Shown: one piece after another, positions 18,474 through 26,985 of the stretch | How positions within the stretch are numbered: the first letter of the stretch is position 1 | Layout of the letters: every line of letters starts with the position of its first letter | Assembly: GCA_017450705.1 (NCBI GenBank) | Contig: JAFSTC010000052.1 | Coordinates: 1-62,230 of the forward strand | DNA: 62,230 nt | Reading direction: 5' to 3' | Source: Lentisphaeria bacterium | Lineage (GTDB): Bacteria > Verrucomicrobiota > Lentisphaeria > Victivallales > Victivallaceae | The notes under the pieces: model-generated | What the model saw: only the letters and a program-made list of their open reading frames with translations | The model's database searches: none | Told to the model about the DNA's origin: nothing | Made by a program: the position numbers and the translations under genes

Positions 18474-19307
18474 CTACTGGTTCTGGTAGGCGGGTTCGCC
18501 GTTGCCTTTGGGGTAGAAGCGGTTGTAAACGTCTTTCACCGTCTTGGCGGTCGCCGCGTTGCCGGTGCCGAAGCAGTACTGCCCGGGCGTGCCGGCGTTG
18601 CTGGTGTGGCCGTCCGGGTGCAGGAAATTGGCCACGTTCGAGCCCCTGTGCCTGAAGTCGATGTTGTTCGAGTCGTCGCCGCAGAAGGTGCGGGAATAGA
18701 AATAGTTCTGATGGTTGACCTGAACGGCTTCGCTGTCGGAAAAGGCGTAGTAATAAGAGGGGTGGCGCATCGTCGCGATCTTGCGGTACGACTGAGCGGA
18801 TTTCGCCGTTCCCGTGCCCATGACGCTTTGGACGATGGCGTAACTGTAATACTGCGCGGCGTAACCGCTTTTTTTGTCCGAGTCGGAGATTGCGGGGTAG
18901 GTCGTCTCCGTCCGCGAGGGACACCCGTTGATGCTTTTTCCGGCTCGCCACTTTGCCTGATTTGCGTTCACCGAGCGGCAGAGATAGTCGGATTGGTGAT
19001 TCCAGTCGCGAAGGGGCGTTGTCGTTCCGTCCGCGTTGTAGCCCAGCTGTTTGTAGGGCATGAGGAAGCCGTCGAATTCATTGACGTAATTGCCCACCAC
19101 CTGACCGATCTGTTTCAGGTTCGCCGTGCAGTTGGCGGCCTTGGCCGTCTCCCGGGCCTGCTGCAGCGCGGGCATCAGCATGGCGGCCAGAATGGCGATG
19201 ATGGCGATAACGACCAGCAGCTCGATCAGCGTGAAGCACATGTGCTTCCCTTCAGCTCCGCTGAAGGGATAATGACCTCTCAGCGTATTTATTTTACCAT
19301 TTTCCAT
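18474..19307 (-). CDS. Type II pseudopilin-like protein heading the phosphatase operon
   Basis: 277 aa from ATG 19307 (GGAGG at 12 bp and AGAGGAA immediately upstream). Leader of about 23 residues ending KHMC, then [28 protein letters not shown] and a variable domain ([53 protein letters not shown]). The residue before the mature Phe is Cys, not Gly. The His...DG block near the C-terminus is typical of this group. It is the first gene of an operon of five secreted phosphatases and is read from the minus half of the interlocked promoter at 19366-19402. Confidence 0.87.
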
Positions 19308-19365: not shown

Positions 19366-19394
19366 TTGTAAATATTATACACCGAAAGTATATT
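19366..19394 (+). promoter_or_regulatory. Promoter of frameshifted araC gene (AraC1)
   Basis: TTGTAA (19366-19371), 17 bp, TATATT (19389-19394). It is interlocked with the opposite promoter: its boxes alternate with those of 19374-19402, so RNA polymerase can occupy only one at a time. The predicted start near 19401 puts the half-sites at about +5 to +37. Confidence 0.75.
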
Positions 19395-19402
19395 AAAGGC
19401 AA
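19374..19402 (-). promoter_or_regulatory. Promoter of pseudopilin-phosphatase operon
   Basis: On the minus strand TTGCCT (19402-19397), 17 bp, TATAAT (19379-19374). Leader to ATG 19307 is about 60 nt. The AraC half-sites begin exactly 2 bp upstream of the -35 box, a class II activator position. Confidence 0.8.
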
Positions 19403-19404
19403 TA

Positions 19405-19437
19405 GCCGAATATCGGGAAATTTTAACAAAATATCGG
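19405..19437. promoter_or_regulatory. AraC-type tandem operator, copy 1
   Basis: Two direct 12-bp half-sites: GCCGAATATCGG (19405-19416) and ACAAAATATCGG (19426-19437), 9 of 12 identical, 21 bp apart (two helical turns). This is the spacing classical for AraC-family dimers. The same half-site shape and spacing recur at 24866-24898 and 23395-23427. Binding is inferred. Confidence 0.65.
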
Positions 19438-19445
19438 TTTTTTTC

Positions 19446-20319
19446 ATGGAGATCCGTTTCGACGGCAAATTGTGGACCCGGACGGGGAGCCCGGCCGTGA
19501 CCGACGTCGCGTCGCCCTTTGCCCCCGTCGACAAGATCCAGCTCTTTTTGCGGAACACGAAAAAAAAGGAGCCCGTGACCTGCGGGCGGGTCAATCTGGC
19601 GGCCCATGATTTTTTTCTGCATCTACCTGTGCCTGAAAGGGAGCGGGTACATCGAGACCGACGGGATCCCCTACTTCGTCGAGGAGGGGAACGCCATCGG
19701 GGTCCTGCCCTATCACCCCCACCGCCGGGTGAATCACGGTCCCGTGCAGTATCTGCTGATCCGGTTCCTCTGTTCGGATCCCGAATTCATCCAGGGGCTT
19801 TTCGGTGTCACCGTCAAATTCGACTCCGAGCTCAAGCCCTACATCCAGTCGTTGGTGACGGCCTACGAGTCCGTTCTGAAGAACGCCACGCTCCCGAACT
19901 GCAACGAGGCGGGACTGCGTCTGGCCCTTCTGCTCAACCGGATGAGGGACTGCGAACGGGACGCCCTCTCGGAAAAAAAGTTTTCCAACCAGCGGGTCCA
20001 CGACGCGCTGCAGATGATCATCTCGCCGGAAAACCTCAACCTCTCCATGCGGGACATTGCGGGGAAACTGGGGGTCACGCCGGGGCACCTGAGCGACCTC
20101 GTCCACGACAAGATCGGGTACGCGCCCCGGGGACTGCGCCGGATGACCCGCCACCGCACGGCGGTCAACCATCTGCTGCACTCGACGCTGAGCATCTCGC
20201 AGATCGCCGAACTGGCCGGTTTCAAAAGCATCTACGCCTTTTCCCGGTTCTTCCGGAGCGTCACGGGCATGAGCCCCTCGGCCTACCGCCGCAAGTACGG
20301 CAAGACCCCCGCGGAGTGA
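19446..20319 (+). pseudogene. AraC-family regulator with a +1 frameshift in a T7 run
   Basis: Frame 1 starts at ATG 19446 ([16 protein letters not shown]... to [11 protein letters not shown]) and continues out of frame after a run of seven T at 19610-19616. The remainder is read from the next frame ([17 protein letters not shown]...). Removing one T restores a protein of about 290 aa that aligns with AraC2 (24902-25765): MxIRFDxxLW, DVASPx[16 protein letters not shown] / VHKYHCLYLCLEG. The C-terminal AraC domain is intact: LSMRDIAGKLGVTPGHLSDL and ISQIAELAGFKSIYAFSRFF, then GMSPSAYRRKYGK. No Shine-Dalgarno is visible; the operator occupies that space. An internal ATG at 19606 could give a 237-aa protein. 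A true mutation, slippage/phase variation and a sequencing error are all possible. Confidence 0.75.
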
Positions 20320-20323
20320 CGGG

Positions 20324-22555
20324 TCATTTGGGGGCTTCGAACCGGGGATCGAGGGCGAAGACCTCGGCGAAGGGGGCGATGGCGAACTTTCGGGCCCTGA
20401 TCCCCCCGATCCGTATTTTGACCTTGCCTTTGGGGAGCAGCATGAACCGCTTCGCCTGGGCGATCTGCCGCCAGTGGGGACCCTCGATCGTCGAAAATCC
20501 CACGGGCCCCGCGGCGAAATCCCTGTTGCCCGGAACGCGGAACGTGACCTTTTTCGGGAACTTTTCGGCATAGGCGAAGAGGTACCAGACATCCTTCTCC
20601 GGCACGTCGAACTCCCAGGTGTCCTTTTCGCCCGGGACGGGCGTCCCGTAAACGGCCTTCTTGCGCAGTTCCGCCGTCAGATGCGTCAGAGACCGGGAAT
20701 CGACCTCCACGCCCACGGGGCGGGAGAGACCGTCGCTCCGGCGAATGAGGAAAGCCCCCCGGTTGAGCCGGGCCTGAGTGAGATTTTTGCGGTCGACCTC
20801 GACGGTCAGCACGAGCGGCTTGCCCGGTTCGACGGTCCCCGCTTCGGGGGTGACGGTGAAGAAGGTGAAATCGTCGTTTTTCCGCACGACGAAGTCGGTC
20901 TTTTCAGCGGCCGTGAGGGTGAGGGTCGCCGCCGGGACCTTTTCGCAGTCCAGACGGATGAAGGCTTTGGAACTGTGCAGGGAGAAGGGCCGCTCCGGCA
21001 GATCGGGACTGTCGGGCCGGGGGAACGCGCCGCGGTTGACCTTGTCCTCGGGCGTGAAGCCCGGGATCGGTTTGCCCGTGCCCGTGCCGGGGGAGTCCGG
21101 TCTCAGCCGGTAGTTCCCCGTGGCGGGATCGGCGAATTTCGGATCGGCGATGATGCCGTGGGTGTCCTGCCCCCGGCTCAGGGCGACTTTCCGGTACCCC
21201 GGTGCGAGCGCTCCGGTGCAGAGGGTGTAATCGAGGGTGCTTTGGGCCTTGACGAACATGCCGTTGGGCGAGCAGTAGGAGTCGACGACGTCCAGCACGT
21301 TGTTCAGTCCGGCCAGCTTGAGATAGTCCCGGTTGGCGTTGACCGAAAAGGCGTTGATGCCGTGCTGGAACCCGACGCCGGTGTTGTTGAAGTGACGGAG
21401 CGTTCCCGTGCCGAACTTGCTGTGGCCGTTCTTGAAGGCCGTGCTGTTATGGTTGAATTCGTCCCCCGGATCGCAGACCAGATTTTCGAAGACGAAGATG
21501 GGACCGCTGACGCAGCACCCCGTGGAGATGCCGCAGAGCGTCCCCTCGATGCGGTTGCGGAAGAACCGGGAATTGATCCCGCCGCCCTCCAGCTCGATGC
21601 CGTCGTCGTTGGCGATGGCCAGATAGTTGCCGTAGATCTCGGCGTCCCGGTAGAAGCCCCCCGTGGGGGAGGAGTTCTCGAAGCACTCGATGACGTCGTT
21701 GTAACGGTGCCGGTCGCTGCCGATGAAGTCGTTGTACCGCAGGGTCACGGCGGAGGCGGCCTTGGCGGCGAGGGCCTTGGGGCCCGCGGGGTGGGAGTAG
21801 AACCAGCTGTTGGCGTGGCCCCGGGTGTCGTGGATGTAGCACTTTTCGACCAGGATCCGGGAGCTGGAAAGGATCCAGATGCCCGAGTCGGAGTTGAGGA
21901 GCAGTTTGCCCTCGTAGAACCGGCCCAGTTTTTTCTTGTTCCACGTGCCCTTTCTGCCGTATTGCGCGATGTCGCAGTTGCGGATGACGATGTGATCGGC
22001 GCCCTCCAGCCGGATGCCGTCCTTTTCGGCGTTTCGGATGACGAGGTTGTCGAAGAGCATGTATTTGCCCTTGACGTGGATCCCGAACTCCCGGCCCGTC
22101 GCGTCCAGTACCGTGCCCGGTGCGGCGGTGTAGCGGATGTAGCCCTTTGGCGTCCCCGATTTGAGGTCGTCGGCGATCCTGCGCCAGTTTTCCCTGGTCA
22201 GCGTCACGGTCTCGGCCACGGGAACGCACGAGTTCTCCGTGCGGAAGGTTTTGCGGACTTCTCCCTTCTTGCCGTTATAAGCGTATTCGAGACGGAGTTC
22301 GTACTCGGTGTTTTCCTCGAGACCGACGACGACGCCCCGGGCGGCCTTCTCGGCCGCGTTGCAGATGAGCGGCAGCACGGGACGCAGGGGCCCGCCCTTT
22401 TTGCCGCAGAAAAGTTTCGACTGAAATTCCGACTCGTCCTTCACCTCGATTCCTGCGAGGTGAAGCGAGGCGCTGACGTACCCCGGCACGACCTCCAGTT
22501 CCGCCCGGAGCGTCAGGGCCGCGAGGAGAAAAAGCGGAAAAAGGCCTTTTTTCAT
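20324..22555 (-). CDS. Secreted right-handed beta-helix protein (pectate lyase/polysaccharidase-like)
   Basis: 743 aa. Signal peptide (LFPLFLLAALTLRAE). Fibronectin-like N-terminus (ENTEYELRLEYAYNGKKGEV), then parallel beta-helix repeats at about 140-420: HVKGKYMLFDNLVIRNAEKD, GIRLEGADHIVIRNCDIAQY, ILVEKCYIHDT, AEIYGNYLAIANDDGIELEG and FFRNRIEGTLCGIS. A beta-rich C-terminus follows. The fold is that of pectate lyases, polysaccharide lyases and glycosidases acting on long chains; catalytic residues cannot be assigned. It is 19 bp after a pseudopilin gene and ends 4 bp from the convergent araC1 gene. Confidence 0.8.
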   Translation of the reverse strand: MKKGLFPLFLLAALTLRAELEVVPGYVSASLHLAGIEVKDESEFQSKLFCGKKGGPLRPVLPLICNAAEKAARGVVVGLEENTEYELRLEYAYNGKKGEVRKTFRTENSCVPVAETVTLTRENWRRIADDLKSGTPKGYIRYTAAPGTVLDATGREFGIHVKGKYMLFDNLVIRNAEKDGIRLEGADHIVIRNCDIAQYGRKGTWNKKKLGRFYEGKLLLNSDSGIWILSSSRILVEKCYIHDTRGHANSWFYSHPAGPKALAAKAASAVTLRYNDFIGSDRHRYNDVIECFENSSPTGGFYRDAEIYGNYLAIANDDGIELEGGGINSRFFRNRIEGTLCGISTGCCVSGPIFVFENLVCDPGDEFNHNSTAFKNGHSKFGTGTLRHFNNTGVGFQHGINAFSVNANRDYLKLAGLNNVLDVVDSYCSPNGMFVKAQSTLDYTLCTGALAPGYRKVALSRGQDTHGIIADPKFADPATGNYRLRPDSPGTGTGKPIPGFTPEDKVNRGAFPRPDSPDLPERPFSLHSSKAFIRLDCEKVPAATLTLTAAEKTDFVVRKNDDFTFFTVTPEAGTVEPGKPLVLTVEVDRKNLTQARLNRGAFLIRRSDGLSRPVGVEVDSRSLTHLTAELRKKAVYGTPVPGEKDTWEFDVPEKDVWYLFAYAEKFPKKVTFRVPGNRDFAAGPVGFSTIEGPHWRQIAQAKRFMLLPKGKVKIRIGGIRARKFAIAPFAEVFALDPRFEAPK

Positions 22556-22574: not shown

Positions 22575-23273
22575 TTACAGAACGTCCAGTTTGTCAGCCG
22601 TGGCCAGCGGGATGTCGGGACTGTCGGTTACGTTCCCGGAGAGGGTGACGATGTTGGTTTTGCCGTTGTGGCGGTAGTCGATCCTGCGGCTGGTCTTGGA
22701 ATCCGTGGTGAGGGGCGACGAGGCCGAAACGTGCTGGGCCTTGGTCGGGGCGTAACTCGCCGCGACGCCGGTCGAATCCACGATGAAGGGGACTTTGCTC
22801 GGATTTCTGACCTGGTGGAGTTTGGGCAGATTGTTGCTCACGTCCCCTATGTTCGAGTTCATGACATAGGAGTGGTCCTTGACCTTCGTGGTCGGACTGC
22901 ACAGCACCGTCGCCTCCTCCGGGACTTCCGGACAGCGGAGGACTTTGAGTTTGCCGAGGTCGGTGCTCGCCTGCGTGGTCTTGTGGATGTAATTGGCAAG
23001 CCAGGTGTCTCCCATGAACCACTCCCGGGTCTTCGTGCCGGAAACGACGACCTGTTTCCACGGCATGATGTAGCCGTCGAAGGTGTCGCTGTAGACGTGG
23101 GAATAAAATCCCAGCTGTTTCAGCTGGCTGACGCAGCTGGACTTGCGGGCCGACGCCCGGGCCTGCTGCAGCGCGGGCATGAGCATGGCGGCCAAAATGG
23201 CGATGATCGCGATCACGACGAGGAGCTCGATCAAAGTGAAGTGTTTCCTTGCAGAAGCCGTCAGCTGCGTCAT
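22575..23273 (-). CDS. Type II pseudopilin-like protein heading the beta-helix operon
   Basis: 232 aa from ATG 23273, chosen for GGAGGG 5 bp upstream; an upstream ATG at 23306 has no site. Short leader [11 protein letters not shown], then [28 protein letters not shown] and a variable domain ([47 protein letters not shown]). The residue before the mature Phe is His, not Gly. It is read from the promoter at 23364-23392, whose operator is the orphan third copy of the AraC module. Pairing with a secreted beta-helix protein fits the pseudopilin-plus-hydrolase pattern of this window. Confidence 0.85.
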
Positions 23274-23363: not shown

Positions 23364-23392
23364 AATATAGCCCGCTGTTCCGGCAAAGTAAA
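23364..23392 (-). promoter_or_regulatory. Promoter of pseudopilin/beta-helix operon
   Basis: On minus TTTACT (23392-23387), 17 bp, TATATT (23369-23364): the same hexamers and spacing as the esterase promoter at 24835-24863. The opposing araC promoter present in the other two copies is erased here (CCGGCG and TCCGGC at the equivalent positions 23356-23361 and 23379-23384). Confidence 0.75.
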
Positions 23393-23394
23393 TG

Positions 23395-23427
23395 ATTAAA
23401 CAACGGGGTTTTTTAACAAAAACACGG
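23395..23427. promoter_or_regulatory. AraC-type tandem operator, orphan copy
   Basis: Half-sites ATTAAACAACGG (23395-23406) and ACAAAAACACGG (23416-23427), 21 bp apart, starting 2 bp upstream of the -35 box as in the other two copies. The sequence stays similar to the araC2 leader up to CGGAAA, but the araC start codon and gene are missing; the end of the esterase gene follows at 23445. Confidence 0.6.
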
Positions 23428-23444: not shown

Positions 23445-24791
23445 TTATTTTTTCGCTGCTTTTATGATCTTCATAAGGGCGGCGTCGCCGTCGGTCGCGG
23501 GGCATTTGGCGTGGACGCCTCCGGGATAGGCGGCGATGTGTTTTGCGGTCGTCGCGGGGATCCGGTTGAAGAGGGCGCAGACCGAGGTGGTGGGGCAGGA
23601 GAGGTCGACGAAACCCATGGTGACGTACACGGGGCACTTGATCATGGGGGCGAAATTCACCGTGTCGAAATAGGACTGCACCTTGAGCAGTTCCGCGAGT
23701 TTTTCCGGGGTGGTCCCTGCTTTCCGGATCGCGAGGGCGAAATTCCCCCGGGGCATCCGGCGCGCGGGGGAGAACTCCCCGTCGATGTCGTTGAAGCCGG
23801 GGACGCCCGCGATGCACAGCGTCACCTTGTCGTCCAGCGCGGCGCCGACGAGGGCCTGCCAGCCGCCCTGACTTGCGCCGCTGACGATGAGGTCGCGGCC
23901 GTTCCACTGGGGCAGGGAGCGCAGATACTCGAGAGCCCGCACCACGCGCAGGGCCATGTCGAGGAAGACGTGCTCCTCTTTCGAGGGGTAGATCTTGCCG
24001 TAGTAGTCCTTCAAGCGGCCGTTCCGGAGATCGGCGTAATATTTGGCGGGCTGGCCGTTGAGGATCCCGTGGGCGTTGATCTCAAGGCAGATCGCTCCCT
24101 CTTTCGCCCACTTGAAGACGTCCCACATGGAGGCGCTGTGGACTCCGGCGCCCTGGACCAGCAGAACGGCAGGCAGGGATTGGGGTGCGGCCTTCTTCGG
24201 CATGGCGAGGTAGCCGGAGACGGGGACGTCATCCACACAGGAAACCTTGACATCCCACATATCGACGCGCTTGTATGCGCCGGGGAGCTTCGCTGGGGTC
24301 TTGCGCTCCAGCTCCTTCATTTCGACTTGAGCCAGGCGCGCCAGCTGGGCCTTCCAGAAGGCGGAAAAATCCTCCGGCGTTTTGCCCGCGGGCAGGATCT
24401 TTTCCGGCTCCGCCACGGCGCCGATGCGGCCGCCCGCGAAACGGATCTGATCGTAGCCCTTTTTCAGGGGGATCCGCTTGCCGTCGTCCCCGAGGACGGT
24501 GAACTCCGCCCGCAATGCGGCGGGATAGGTGAACTTGTAGTCGAAGGTCCAGGGCTTTCCCGCGTCGCTCACGAATTTTCCTTTTTTGGAAAATCCGCCG
24601 TCCGCGAGGATCGTGTAGGTGACGGTTTTTCCGGAGACGGGTTTGCCGTCCTCGAGGACGACGGCCGAGACGCGCACCGGCTCGCCGCACTTGTAGACGG
24701 CGTCCTTTTTGTCCGTCGTCGCCTGAACGCTCAACTCGCCCGCCGTGCAGCAGGCCGCGGCGAAGAACGCCGCAAGAAGACCCGATCTCAT
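23445..24791 (-). CDS. Secreted AXE1-like acetyl esterase (second copy)
   Basis: 448 aa from ATG 24791 (AAGGAA at 6 bp); an in-frame start further upstream would lie at the promoter. Signal peptide (RSGLLAAFFAAACCTAG), beta-sandwich domain, then an alpha/beta hydrolase: LPAVLLVQGAG, nucleophile IVSGASQGGWQALVGAA, candidate Asp/His in VTMGFVDLSCPTTS and YPGGVHAKCP. Same architecture as the esterase at 6076-7347 (both have DFWDFW/DFSAFWK before the catalytic domain), but well diverged. Monocistronic and divergent from AraC2. Confidence 0.82.
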   Translation of the reverse strand: MRSGLLAAFFAAACCTAGELSVQATTDKKDAVYKCGEPVRVSAVVLEDGKPVSGKTVTYTILADGGFSKKGKFVSDAGKPWTFDYKFTYPAALRAEFTVLGDDGKRIPLKKGYDQIRFAGGRIGAVAEPEKILPAGKTPEDFSAFWKAQLARLAQVEMKELERKTPAKLPGAYKRVDMWDVKVSCVDDVPVSGYLAMPKKAAPQSLPAVLLVQGAGVHSASMWDVFKWAKEGAICLEINAHGILNGQPAKYYADLRNGRLKDYYGKIYPSKEEHVFLDMALRVVRALEYLRSLPQWNGRDLIVSGASQGGWQALVGAALDDKVTLCIAGVPGFNDIDGEFSPARRMPRGNFALAIRKAGTTPEKLAELLKVQSYFDTVNFAPMIKCPVYVTMGFVDLSCPTTSVCALFNRIPATTAKHIAAYPGGVHAKCPATDGDAALMKIIKAAKK

Positions 24792-24826
24792 ATTTTTTCC
24801 TTTCCCTGTGGATATTTGGAGGTGGC

Positions 24827-24855
24827 TTGCAAACAATATACCCCGCGCCTATATT
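24827..24855 (+). promoter_or_regulatory. araC2 promoter
   Basis: TTGCAA (24827-24832), 17 bp, TATATT (24850-24855). Box offsets to the opposing promoter (8, 15, 8 bp) are identical to those at 19366-19402. The half-sites start 11 bp after the -10 box, as in copy 1. Confidence 0.75.
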
Positions 24856-24863
24856 AAAGTAAA
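24835..24863 (-). promoter_or_regulatory. Promoter of secreted esterase
   Basis: On minus TTTACT (24863-24858), 17 bp, TATATT (24840-24835); leader about 37 nt to ATG 24791. The operator starts 2 bp upstream of the -35 box. Confidence 0.75.
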
Positions 24864-24865
24864 GG

Positions 24866-24898
24866 ACAAAACAGCGGTTTTTTTTGACGAAAACGCGG
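24866..24898. promoter_or_regulatory. AraC-type tandem operator, copy 2
   Basis: ACAAAACAGCGG (24866-24877) and ACGAAAACGCGG (24887-24898), 9 of 12 identical and 21 bp apart. The second half-site ends 3 bp before the araC2 ATG, so bound protein would sit on the araC2 leader. Confidence 0.65.
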
Positions 24899-24901
24899 AA
24901 A

Positions 24902-25765
24902 ATGAAGATCAGGTTCGACAAGGCCCTGTGGGCGAAACTCGGCAAGACTGAGAGGCCGGACGTCGCGTCGCCTCTTGCTCCCGTCACCAATATCCGCTGC
25001 TGGGTGCGGGACGAATCGGGCATGTCGGGCCGGGGCGGGGCGGCCGTCCACAAATACCACTGTCTCTATCTCTGCCTCGAGGGAGCGGGGAAGATCGAGA
25101 TCGACGCCGTTCCCTATCTCATCGGGGAGAACGAGGCGATCGGCGTGCTGCCCCAGCACCCCCACAGGCGGCCGAAGGGGGAGACGCCCGTGAAGTATTT
25201 TCTCATCCGCTTCGAGCCGGTCGATCCCGGGCTTCTCCTGCCGCTCTTCGACGCGACGCTCCGGCTGGGGGAGGAGGTACGGCCTTTCATCCAGGAACTG
25301 GTAGGAGCCTACGAAAGGGTCTGCCGAAACGAAACGCTCAGGAACTGCAACGACGTGGGTCTGCGTCTGGGACTTCTGCTCAACGCCCTGATGACGTGCG
25401 CCAAGCGGGAATTCTCCGCCGCGCCCTCCGGCAATCAGCGGCTTTCGGAGGTCGTGGACGCGCTCCTCGACCCGGAAAACATCGGCCTTTCCCTGAAGGA
25501 GATCGCCTTCAAGCTGGGCATCACGTCGGGCCATCTGACCGACTGCGTCCGCGACGCCATGGGCTATTCTCCCCGGCACATCCGGCAGGTGACCCGCTAT
25601 CACGCTGCGGTGGATTGTCTGCTCCACACGACGCTGAGCATCTCGAAGATCGCCGAAAAAACCGGTTTCCGCAGCGTCTACGCCTTCTCCCGCTTCTTTC
25701 ACAGGATCACGGGCATGAGCCCTACCGCTTTCCGCCGAAAGTACGGAAAGACGCGGGAAGAGTGA
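24902..25765 (+). CDS. AraC-family transcriptional activator (AraC2)
   Basis: 287 aa from ATG 24902; a TTG at 24884 would add six residues and lie in the operator. N-terminal cupin-like sensing domain (MKIRFDKALWAKLG, YHCLYLCLEGAGKIEIDAVP, IGVLPQHPHRRP), linker helices, then the C-terminal double helix-turn-helix: SLKEIAFKLGITSGHLTDCV and LSISKIAEKTGFRSVYAFSR, ending GMSPTAFRRKYGK. No clear ribosome binding site (GGAAA directly before ATG), consistent with low expression. Likely activates the divergent esterase gene and, by operator similarity, the pseudopilin/beta-helix operon at 23273-20324. The ligand is presumably a sugar released by these hydrolases (inference). Confidence 0.88.
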   Translation: MKIRFDKALWAKLGKTERPDVASPLAPVTNIRCWVRDESGMSGRGGAAVHKYHCLYLCLEGAGKIEIDAVPYLIGENEAIGVLPQHPHRRPKGETPVKYFLIRFEPVDPGLLLPLFDATLRLGEEVRPFIQELVGAYERVCRNETLRNCNDVGLRLGLLLNALMTCAKREFSAAPSGNQRLSEVVDALLDPENIGLSLKEIAFKLGITSGHLTDCVRDAMGYSPRHIRQVTRYHAAVDCLLHTTLSISKIAEKTGFRSVYAFSRFFHRITGMSPTAFRRKYGKTREE

Positions 25766-25835: not shown

Positions 25836-25852
25836 ACTCAAGATAAGAGGAT

Positions 25853-26003
25853 AACGACGCATAATACCTATTATGTAAAGCCATTTTACCAGTCCTCTGT
25901 TTTTTCCATTTCAGTCAAGTGCGATATTCTGAAATCCTAATGCTCTGTTCGTGAGACGGTTGTGCTTGCTCGTCATTTAACATAATAGGTATTATGCGTC
26001 GTT
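25853..26003. repeat. 151-bp AT-rich element with 24-bp perfect inverted repeats
   Basis: The arm at 25853-25876 (AACGACGCATAA...TATTATGT) is the exact reverse complement of 25980-26003, with 103 bp between. Each arm contains an internal palindrome CATAATA-CC-TATTATG. The segment is visibly AT-richer than its flanks. No target-site duplication is evident and no transposase is present; the minus strand has only a 22-codon frame (25983-25915). It could be a MITE, the remains of an insertion, or a very stable mRNA leader hairpin. Confidence 0.6.
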
Positions 26004-26985
26004 GTCCTGTGAGCCTCACAGGACAAAAGACCTGTTCCTTGCCGATGGCGGCGATTCTGCCGGCGGGACCGGGCTGGACGTCTCTCCGTCCGTGGTCGTG
26101 ACGATCCCCGTTTACCGGGCGGAAATGTCTCAAAATGAAGAGGCTTCTTTCCGGAGGAATACCTCCGTTTTGGGAAAGAGACACCCGGTCGTCCTGTTCG
26201 CTCCCCGGGGACTTGACCTGACCCGGTACAGGAAGATCTTTCCCGGATTTCAGGTCGAATTTTTTCCGGACCGTTTTTTCGGATCCATCGAAGATTACAG
26301 CCGTCTGCTGCTTTCGGAAGAGTTCTACGAGCGCTTTTCGGCTTACGAGTGGCTGCTGATCTGTCAGCTGGACGCCTGGGTGCTGAAGGACGAACTGGCA
26401 CGCTGGTGCGCGACCTCCTGCGACTTCTGGGGCGCGCCGATCTCCGCGCGCTGGGAGTTCTACATGGACGGCAGGATCCGCGACATTGTCGGCAACGGGG
26501 GCTTCTCCTTGCGGCGTATCTCCGCCTTCCTGAAAGTCCTGCGGGCGGAACGGGGGCCCATGTACACCCGGAAAGCCCTGGGCCATCATATCGTCCGGCA
26601 TTTCCGCAACGGCGATTTCCTGCGCGCGCTCGTCCCGATCCTCCGGATGGCGGGCATCGGCAACGGCCGCCGTCTCTGTCTCGACATTCTGCGCCGTCAG
26701 GGCTGCTGCGAGGACATGGTATTCCGCGCCCTGTCGTCTCCCGAACTCGAGCCCCATTTGAATTTTCCTTCTGTGAGGGAAGCGGCCGACTTTGCGCTCG
26801 ACGGGAATTTTCTGCGGCAATTTTTCGAAATTTCCGGCCGGCGGATACCCTGTGGTCTCCACGCCTGGCATCAGCCGGAGGGCATGGCTTTTTTGAGATC
26901 TCTCCGGGAGAAAGATCCGGCCGCCGTTCCCGAATCGGTTCTCCCGGCGGCGCCGAACGAAGGGGAGCGGGGAGTGGACATATGA
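26002..26985 (+). CDS. DUF5672-like glycosyltransferase-type protein
   Basis: 327 aa if read from TTG 26002. The recognisable domain begins near residue 31 (VVVTIPVYRAEMSQNEEASF) and continues with FPDRFFGSIEDYSRLLLSEE, YEWLLICQLDAWVLKDEL, DFWGAPISARWEFYMDGR and VGNGGFSLRRISAFL: the DUF5672 pattern seen in glycan-biosynthesis loci, with an aspartate motif (CQLDAWV) like those of GT-A enzymes. There is no ATG and no ribosome binding site. TTG 26002 lies in the inverted-repeat arm and the palindrome would be coding; GTG 26092 or 26098 at the domain edge are alternatives. The original 5' end may have been replaced by the element. Overlaps the next gene by 4 bp. Confidence 0.7.
   Translation: MSCEPHRTKDLFLADGGDSAGGTGLDVSPSVVVTIPVYRAEMSQNEEASFRRNTSVLGKRHPVVLFAPRGLDLTRYRKIFPGFQVEFFPDRFFGSIEDYSRLLLSEEFYERFSAYEWLLICQLDAWVLKDELARWCATSCDFWGAPISARWEFYMDGRIRDIVGNGGFSLRRISAFLKVLRAERGPMYTRKALGHHIVRHFRNGDFLRALVPILRMAGIGNGRRLCLDILRRQGCCEDMVFRALSSPELEPHLNFPSVREAADFALDGNFLRQFFEISGRRIPCGLHAWHQPEGMAFLRSLREKDPAAVPESVLPAAPNEGERGVDI
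26004..26024. repeat. 21-bp perfect palindrome beside the inverted-repeat element
   Basis: GTCCTGTGAG (26004-26013), C, CTCACAGGAC (26015-26024) directly abuts the right arm of the element. It could be an operator, a recombination site or a second leader hairpin. Confidence 0.6.

Follow-up and report, generated by a model that had tools for sequence, protein, structure and literature searches.

Introduction

In Escherichia coli, the half-sites of araI are 17 bp long and lie 21 bp apart, and the inner one overlaps the -35 hexamer. The arabinose-bound AraC dimer recruits RNA polymerase from the adjacent araI1 and araI2 half-sites (PMC4760080), and the occupancy of this pair in the presence of arabinose activates in the araC-araBAD system (PMC4760080, PMC7499043). 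Other divergent genes of E. coli, such as acrA/acrR and soxS/soxR, have bidirectional promoters, in which opposed promoters exclude each other's polymerase and an activator acting on one direction tends to reduce the opposite one; the opposed starts flank a shared -10 or lie within it, common distances between them being 10, 18 and 23 bp (PMC12825309).

We analysed a stretch of 62,230 nucleotides (the window) of a Lentisphaeria bacterium (GCA_017450705.1), in which positions 24827-24898, hereafter copy 2, separate a gene for an AraC-family regulator (araC2) from a divergent esterase gene. This locus resembles araC-araBAD in having adjacent direct half-sites (putative here) by the target promoter, a divergent araC, and an AraC-type regulator. 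It differs in that the promoters are not separate but interleaved within 37 bp, the box is CCG instead of TAGC, and the half-sites are in the araC leader; a search of the window for a further, araO2-like single half-site found none. Like the promoters of acrA/acrR and soxS/soxR, those of copy 2 are opposed and would be mutually exclusive. Unlike the bidirectional promoters described in PMC12825309, they share no -10: a separate -10 and -35 serve each direction, and the distance is 15 bp from one -10 to the other and ~34 bp from one expected start to the other.

Results

The promoter/operator region between araC2 and the esterase gene consists of two interleaved sigma-70-like promoters (predicted) and a 21-bp direct repeat (Table 1). 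The promoter hexamers match only 4-5 of 6 consensus bases, and those -35 of target promoters that match least only 2 of 6 (range 2 to 4), and the calls assume the sigma-factor preference of Lentisphaeria. All 12 bases of the araC2 promoter hexamers are identical in the orthologous region of the sister species G005. Read in the orientation of the target gene, the distal half-site CCGCGTTTTCGTCAAAA precedes the proximal one CCGCTGTTTTGTCCTTT; both are 17 bp long, direct, and begin with CCG (the CGG of the repeat is at 24875 and 24896, and at 19414 and 19435 in copy 1). By their coordinates, and given the half-site length of 17 bp and the hexamer as assigned, the proximal half-site and the esterase -35 overlap by 3 bp. 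The spacing of 21 bp between the two half-sites was found in 10 of the 10 sites compared. The start codon of araC2 is 3 nt beyond the distal half-site: the list of open reading frames had a TTG at 24884, and the ATG at 24902 is the one that aligns with all orthologues. The gene araC1 also begins just behind the second repeat, with its ATG at 19446.

Table 1. Positions of the promoter/operator sites and of the neighbouring genes in the window.
Feature	Position	Strand	Remarks
pilin 1 (N_methyl + DUF1559)	18474..19307	-	76% identical to the G005 orthologue
copy 1	19366..19437	.	between pilin 1 and araC1; interleaved promoters; half-sites 19400-19416 and 19421-19437
araC1	19446..20319	+	frame broken at T7 run 19610-19616; G005 orthologue intact
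right-handed beta-helix protein	20324..22555	-	downstream of pilin 2; order kept in G005
pilin 2 (N_methyl + DUF1559)	22575..23273	-	78% identical to the G005 pilin directly divergent from araC
copy 3	23364..23427	-	operator and target promoter, no araC; -10 23369-23364, -35 23392-23387; half-sites 23390-23406 and 23411-23427
esterase (AXE1 family)	23445..24791	-	signal-peptide-like start; absent from this place in G005; paralogue of the C103 esterase (75%)
araC2 promoter (predicted)	24827..24855	+	-35 TTGCAA 24827-24832, 17-bp spacer, -10 TATATT 24850-24855
esterase promoter (predicted)	24835..24863	-	-35 TTTACT 24863-24858, 17-bp spacer, -10 TATATT 24840-24835
proximal half-site (putative), CCGCTGTTTTGTCCTTT	24861..24877	-	same place in all orthologous regions
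distal half-site (putative), CCGCGTTTTCGTCAAAA	24882..24898	-	21 bp from the proximal half-site
araC2, AraC-family regulator (287 aa)	24902..25765	+	N-terminal AraC_binding, C-terminal HTH_18 (Pfam)

The initial annotation had described copy 2 as a recurrence of copy 1 with the same distances and a different spacer sequence. The distances are indeed equal: the left ends of the four hexamers step by 8, 15 and 8 in both copies (at 19366, 19374, 19389 and 19397 in copy 1), and the CGG pair, with its 21-bp repeat, is equally far from the promoters. The bases, on the other hand, are not unrelated. Because 46 of the 72 (27 of the 37 in the promoter core) are identical without a gap, copies 1 and 2 are homologous, a point that had not been considered, and their equal spacing is therefore not independent evidence.

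AraC2 has an AraC-type C-terminal helix-turn-helix (HTH_18, 69.3 bits for a cut-off of 33.6) and an N-terminal ligand-binding domain of the sugar type that scores just over its cut-off (AraC_binding, 22.3 bits for 21.1). It is not an orthologue of E. coli AraC (48 bits against the equivalog model, for a cut-off of 208). The similarity of its helix-turn-helix to RhaS, RhaR and MelR, which regulate carbohydrate genes, is in all cases far below the NCBIfam cut-offs, and AraC2 is no orthologue of a named member; unlike theirs, its targets are likely to be pilin-like proteins, a beta-helix protein, and enzymes resembling acetyl-xylan esterases. AraC1 and AraC2 are ~50% identical paralogues whose helix-turn-helix regions are very alike in the alignment. 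G005 has both, which dates their duplication, as read from these sequences, before the split from that species. The frame break of araC1 could reflect a broken gene, phase variation or an assembly error. Just downstream of araC2, a 32-nt inverted repeat (25848-25879 and 25977-26008, 97 nt apart) is 94% complementary; no further copy of it was found elsewhere in the genome.

The third site of the window, copy 3, was missed by the initial annotation, even if its minus-strand promoter (23392-23364) is seen in the promoter scan. It precedes the gene of pilin 2, has the half-site pair in the same register, and has lost both araC-direction hexamers. Compared with the orthologous region of G005, the target hexamers and half-sites are identical at 37 of 40 bases, and the araC-direction hexamers at 2 of 12 (Fisher p 1e-6, in a test that treats sites as independent and with element classes chosen after the alignment was seen). 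This is how copy 3 should have decayed if it continued to serve the pilin gene but stopped driving an araC. The araC-direction -10 follows the same division: it is present in 7 of the 7 araC-divergent regions and in 0 of the 3 sites without araC (copy 3 and the two esterase sites described below). Copy 3 is thus a natural deletion test, an operator without an adjoining araC in which only the araC-direction hexamers decayed, and it separates the part that would control the target from the araC promoter without an experiment.

We searched the 3.97-Mb genome for further operators. A promoter-core pattern matched only copies 1 and 2; copy 3 was missed because it lacks the araC promoter. A pattern of 23 positions, combining the half-sites with the -35 flank and allowing at most 3 mismatches, matched only copies 1, 2 and 3, and its reversed control had 0 matches. 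The three copies have 0 mismatches by construction because the pattern was made from them, and the information of this search is the absence of any further match. A looser pattern, searched exactly (0 mismatches), fits two further places. One, C40:39338, is GC-rich and was taken as a chance match. The other, C103:30762-30798, is AT-rich and unlinked to the window; an esterase 75% identical to that of the window starts ~120 bases beyond it. This fourth operator, also missed initially, has an orthologue in G005, found in a genus-wide search before the orthologous esterase (C238:12156-12192). In both, the -10 (TATAGT in C103) is 1 bp nearer than at the other sites. The C103 locus (C103:30762-33613) has two tandem AXE1 esterase genes behind the operator.

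Of the 33 other genomes examined in the genus, 4 have orthologues of AraC2 (G005, G020, G003 and G045); these are Lentisphaeria MAGs from goat rumen, sheep colon, and roe deer caecum. In a contig scan of the genome collection, AraC2 alone as query gave no match, and the alignment as query retrieved relatives. The operator is found at araC in the 5 of 5 genomes with an AraC2 orthologue (including our own), and in the other genomes of the genus its pattern gives only scattered matches. All four relatives have the interleaved promoters and the 21-bp repeat at araC; a single araC, G005b, has an araC-promoter spacer that is 1 base shorter. In G005 the two araC genes are ~4 kb apart and the gene order is the same (pilin, araC, beta-helix, pilin, araC). 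The initial annotation had proposed to ask if distances are more conserved than bases, and this is what we observe: across the 72-bp core of seven araC-divergent regions from five species there is one 1-nt indel, whereas the pairs compared differ at 13 to 26 of the 72 bases, and the gap between the core and the ATG of araC, outside the core, varies in the same regions (3, 4, 6, 7 or 8 nt).

The genome encodes 72 AraC genes, and we surveyed the 70 AraC regions outside the window. We trained a layout profile on other species only; it scored above 40 bits at copies 1 and 2 and at the regions of two other AraC genes, L047 and L042, which are orthologues of training members, and 34 at copy 3, and its reversed control gave no hit. 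In a quick tree, the AraCs with the layout make up a single clade (SH-aLRT 100), in which AraC1 groups with G005b and AraC2 with G005a. One weak profile match (L063, 20.8 bits) falls outside it and was left out of the count. L042 and L047 are other branches of this clade, with the same promoter/operator layout and other bases in place of the CCG boxes. The divergent gene at L042 encodes a GFO/IDH/MocA oxidoreductase; that at L047, by our reading of its sequence only, may encode a sialidase-like BNR protein. In the other AraC regions of the genome that have overlapping promoter-like pairs, the offsets of the best pairs are scattered, and an offset of 8 is found only in copies 1 and 2. The initial annotation held that random spacing at other araC regions would make the match a coincidence. 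The spacing is scattered, but the match is not coincidental, given that the layout is confined to a single clade and is kept from species to species.

The direct neighbour of araC differs between the window and its relatives. A pilin gene directly faces araC in G005, G003 and G045, so the esterase between pilin 2 and araC2 would most simply be an insertion in which the operator was duplicated, the direction of this change being deduced from the outgroups. Ancestrally, this clade of regulators appears to have targeted the pilin-like proteins (N_methyl + DUF1559).

Discussion

We think it likely that a small AraC-type regulon is controlled here, by an operator/promoter of the araI1-araI2 kind. 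A ligand-bound dimer of AraC2, AraC1 or both would occupy the two half-sites and activate the esterase or the pilin promoter by a class II contact at the -35, as AraC does at araI1-araI2. We infer activation of the target, as opposed to repression, from position alone. With transcription expected to start 7 bases past each -10 (~24862 on the plus strand, ~24828 on the minus strand), the half-sites lie just past the expected araC start; hence, binding would hinder the transcription of araC, and an operator in this leader probably represses araC as well (negative autoregulation). Interleaved promoters would admit one RNA polymerase at a time, and activation in one direction would therefore lower transcription in the other. 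Within the window, the putative regulon contains both pilins, the beta-helix gene and the local esterase, and it would extend in trans to the C103 esterase operon. Because the frame of AraC1 is broken, all sites may depend on AraC2. As for the ligand, a guess from the esterase and beta-helix genes is an oligosaccharide of plant cell walls.

The same site could also act with the opposite sign, the AraC protein covering the target -35 to repress and the ligand releasing it, with no direct activation. An overlap of 3 bp between the proximal half-site and the -35 suits steric block too, but the low match of the target -35 hexamers is what one expects of activator-dependent promoters, and direct half-sites 21 bp apart that end in the -35 are generally known as the activating araI1-araI2 layout (for the roles of araI, see PMC4760080). 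Such repression thus seems unlikely, and we favour activation of the target by the bound dimer.

The likeness of the copies could also reflect recency, in a recently duplicated segment or mobile repeat, and not function. AraC1 and AraC2, like the two pilins, are tandem paralogous pairs. Yet the duplication is old, because copies 1 and 2 retain only 46 of 72 identical bases, the AraCs are ~50% identical, and the pair is older than the split from G005; furthermore, two species have retained the operator at unlinked loci. This divergence, together with the loss from copy 3 of just the araC-direction hexamers, led us to reject a recent duplication as very improbable. More improbable still is that consensus-like hexamers in AT-rich intergenic DNA agree by chance. 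The hexamers match imperfectly, and overlapping promoter-like pairs often occur in front of other araC genes, but when we shuffled positions 24792-24901 200,000 times, preserving dinucleotides, the four-hexamer geometry arose in one shuffle, and in none together with the CGG pair. Together with the conserved layout of the orthologous regions in five species, these shuffles exclude chance. The agreement of distances is the result of common descent plus constraint, not of independent acquisition.

The initial annotation saw in this agreement a genuine transferable module. The third site of the window, the unlinked esterase operon and the four relatives argue for a genuine module with constrained spacing. 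It is transferable only in the sense of duplication and reuse inside a lineage, and the copies trace back to duplications in one AraC clade.

As judged from the sequence, the site is a real one: it recurs with unchanged spacing both at sister genes and among relatives, which marks an inherited control site whose kind is well known. We found nothing relevant in the literature on this regulator or layout in Lentisphaeria or Victivallis. To our knowledge, a fixed layout of interleaved promoters with the operator in the araC leader has not been described in any AraC system. It is a tentative possibility, on the doubtful side, that this whole clade of AraC regulators in Lentisphaeria keeps interleaved promoters and a leader operator that turn polymerase competition into a mutually exclusive choice between regulator and target. 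These sites define, from sequence, an AraC regulon of pilin-like proteins, a beta-helix protein and acetyl-xylan-type esterases in uncultured gut Lentisphaeria, of which this genome alone encodes 72 AraC genes.
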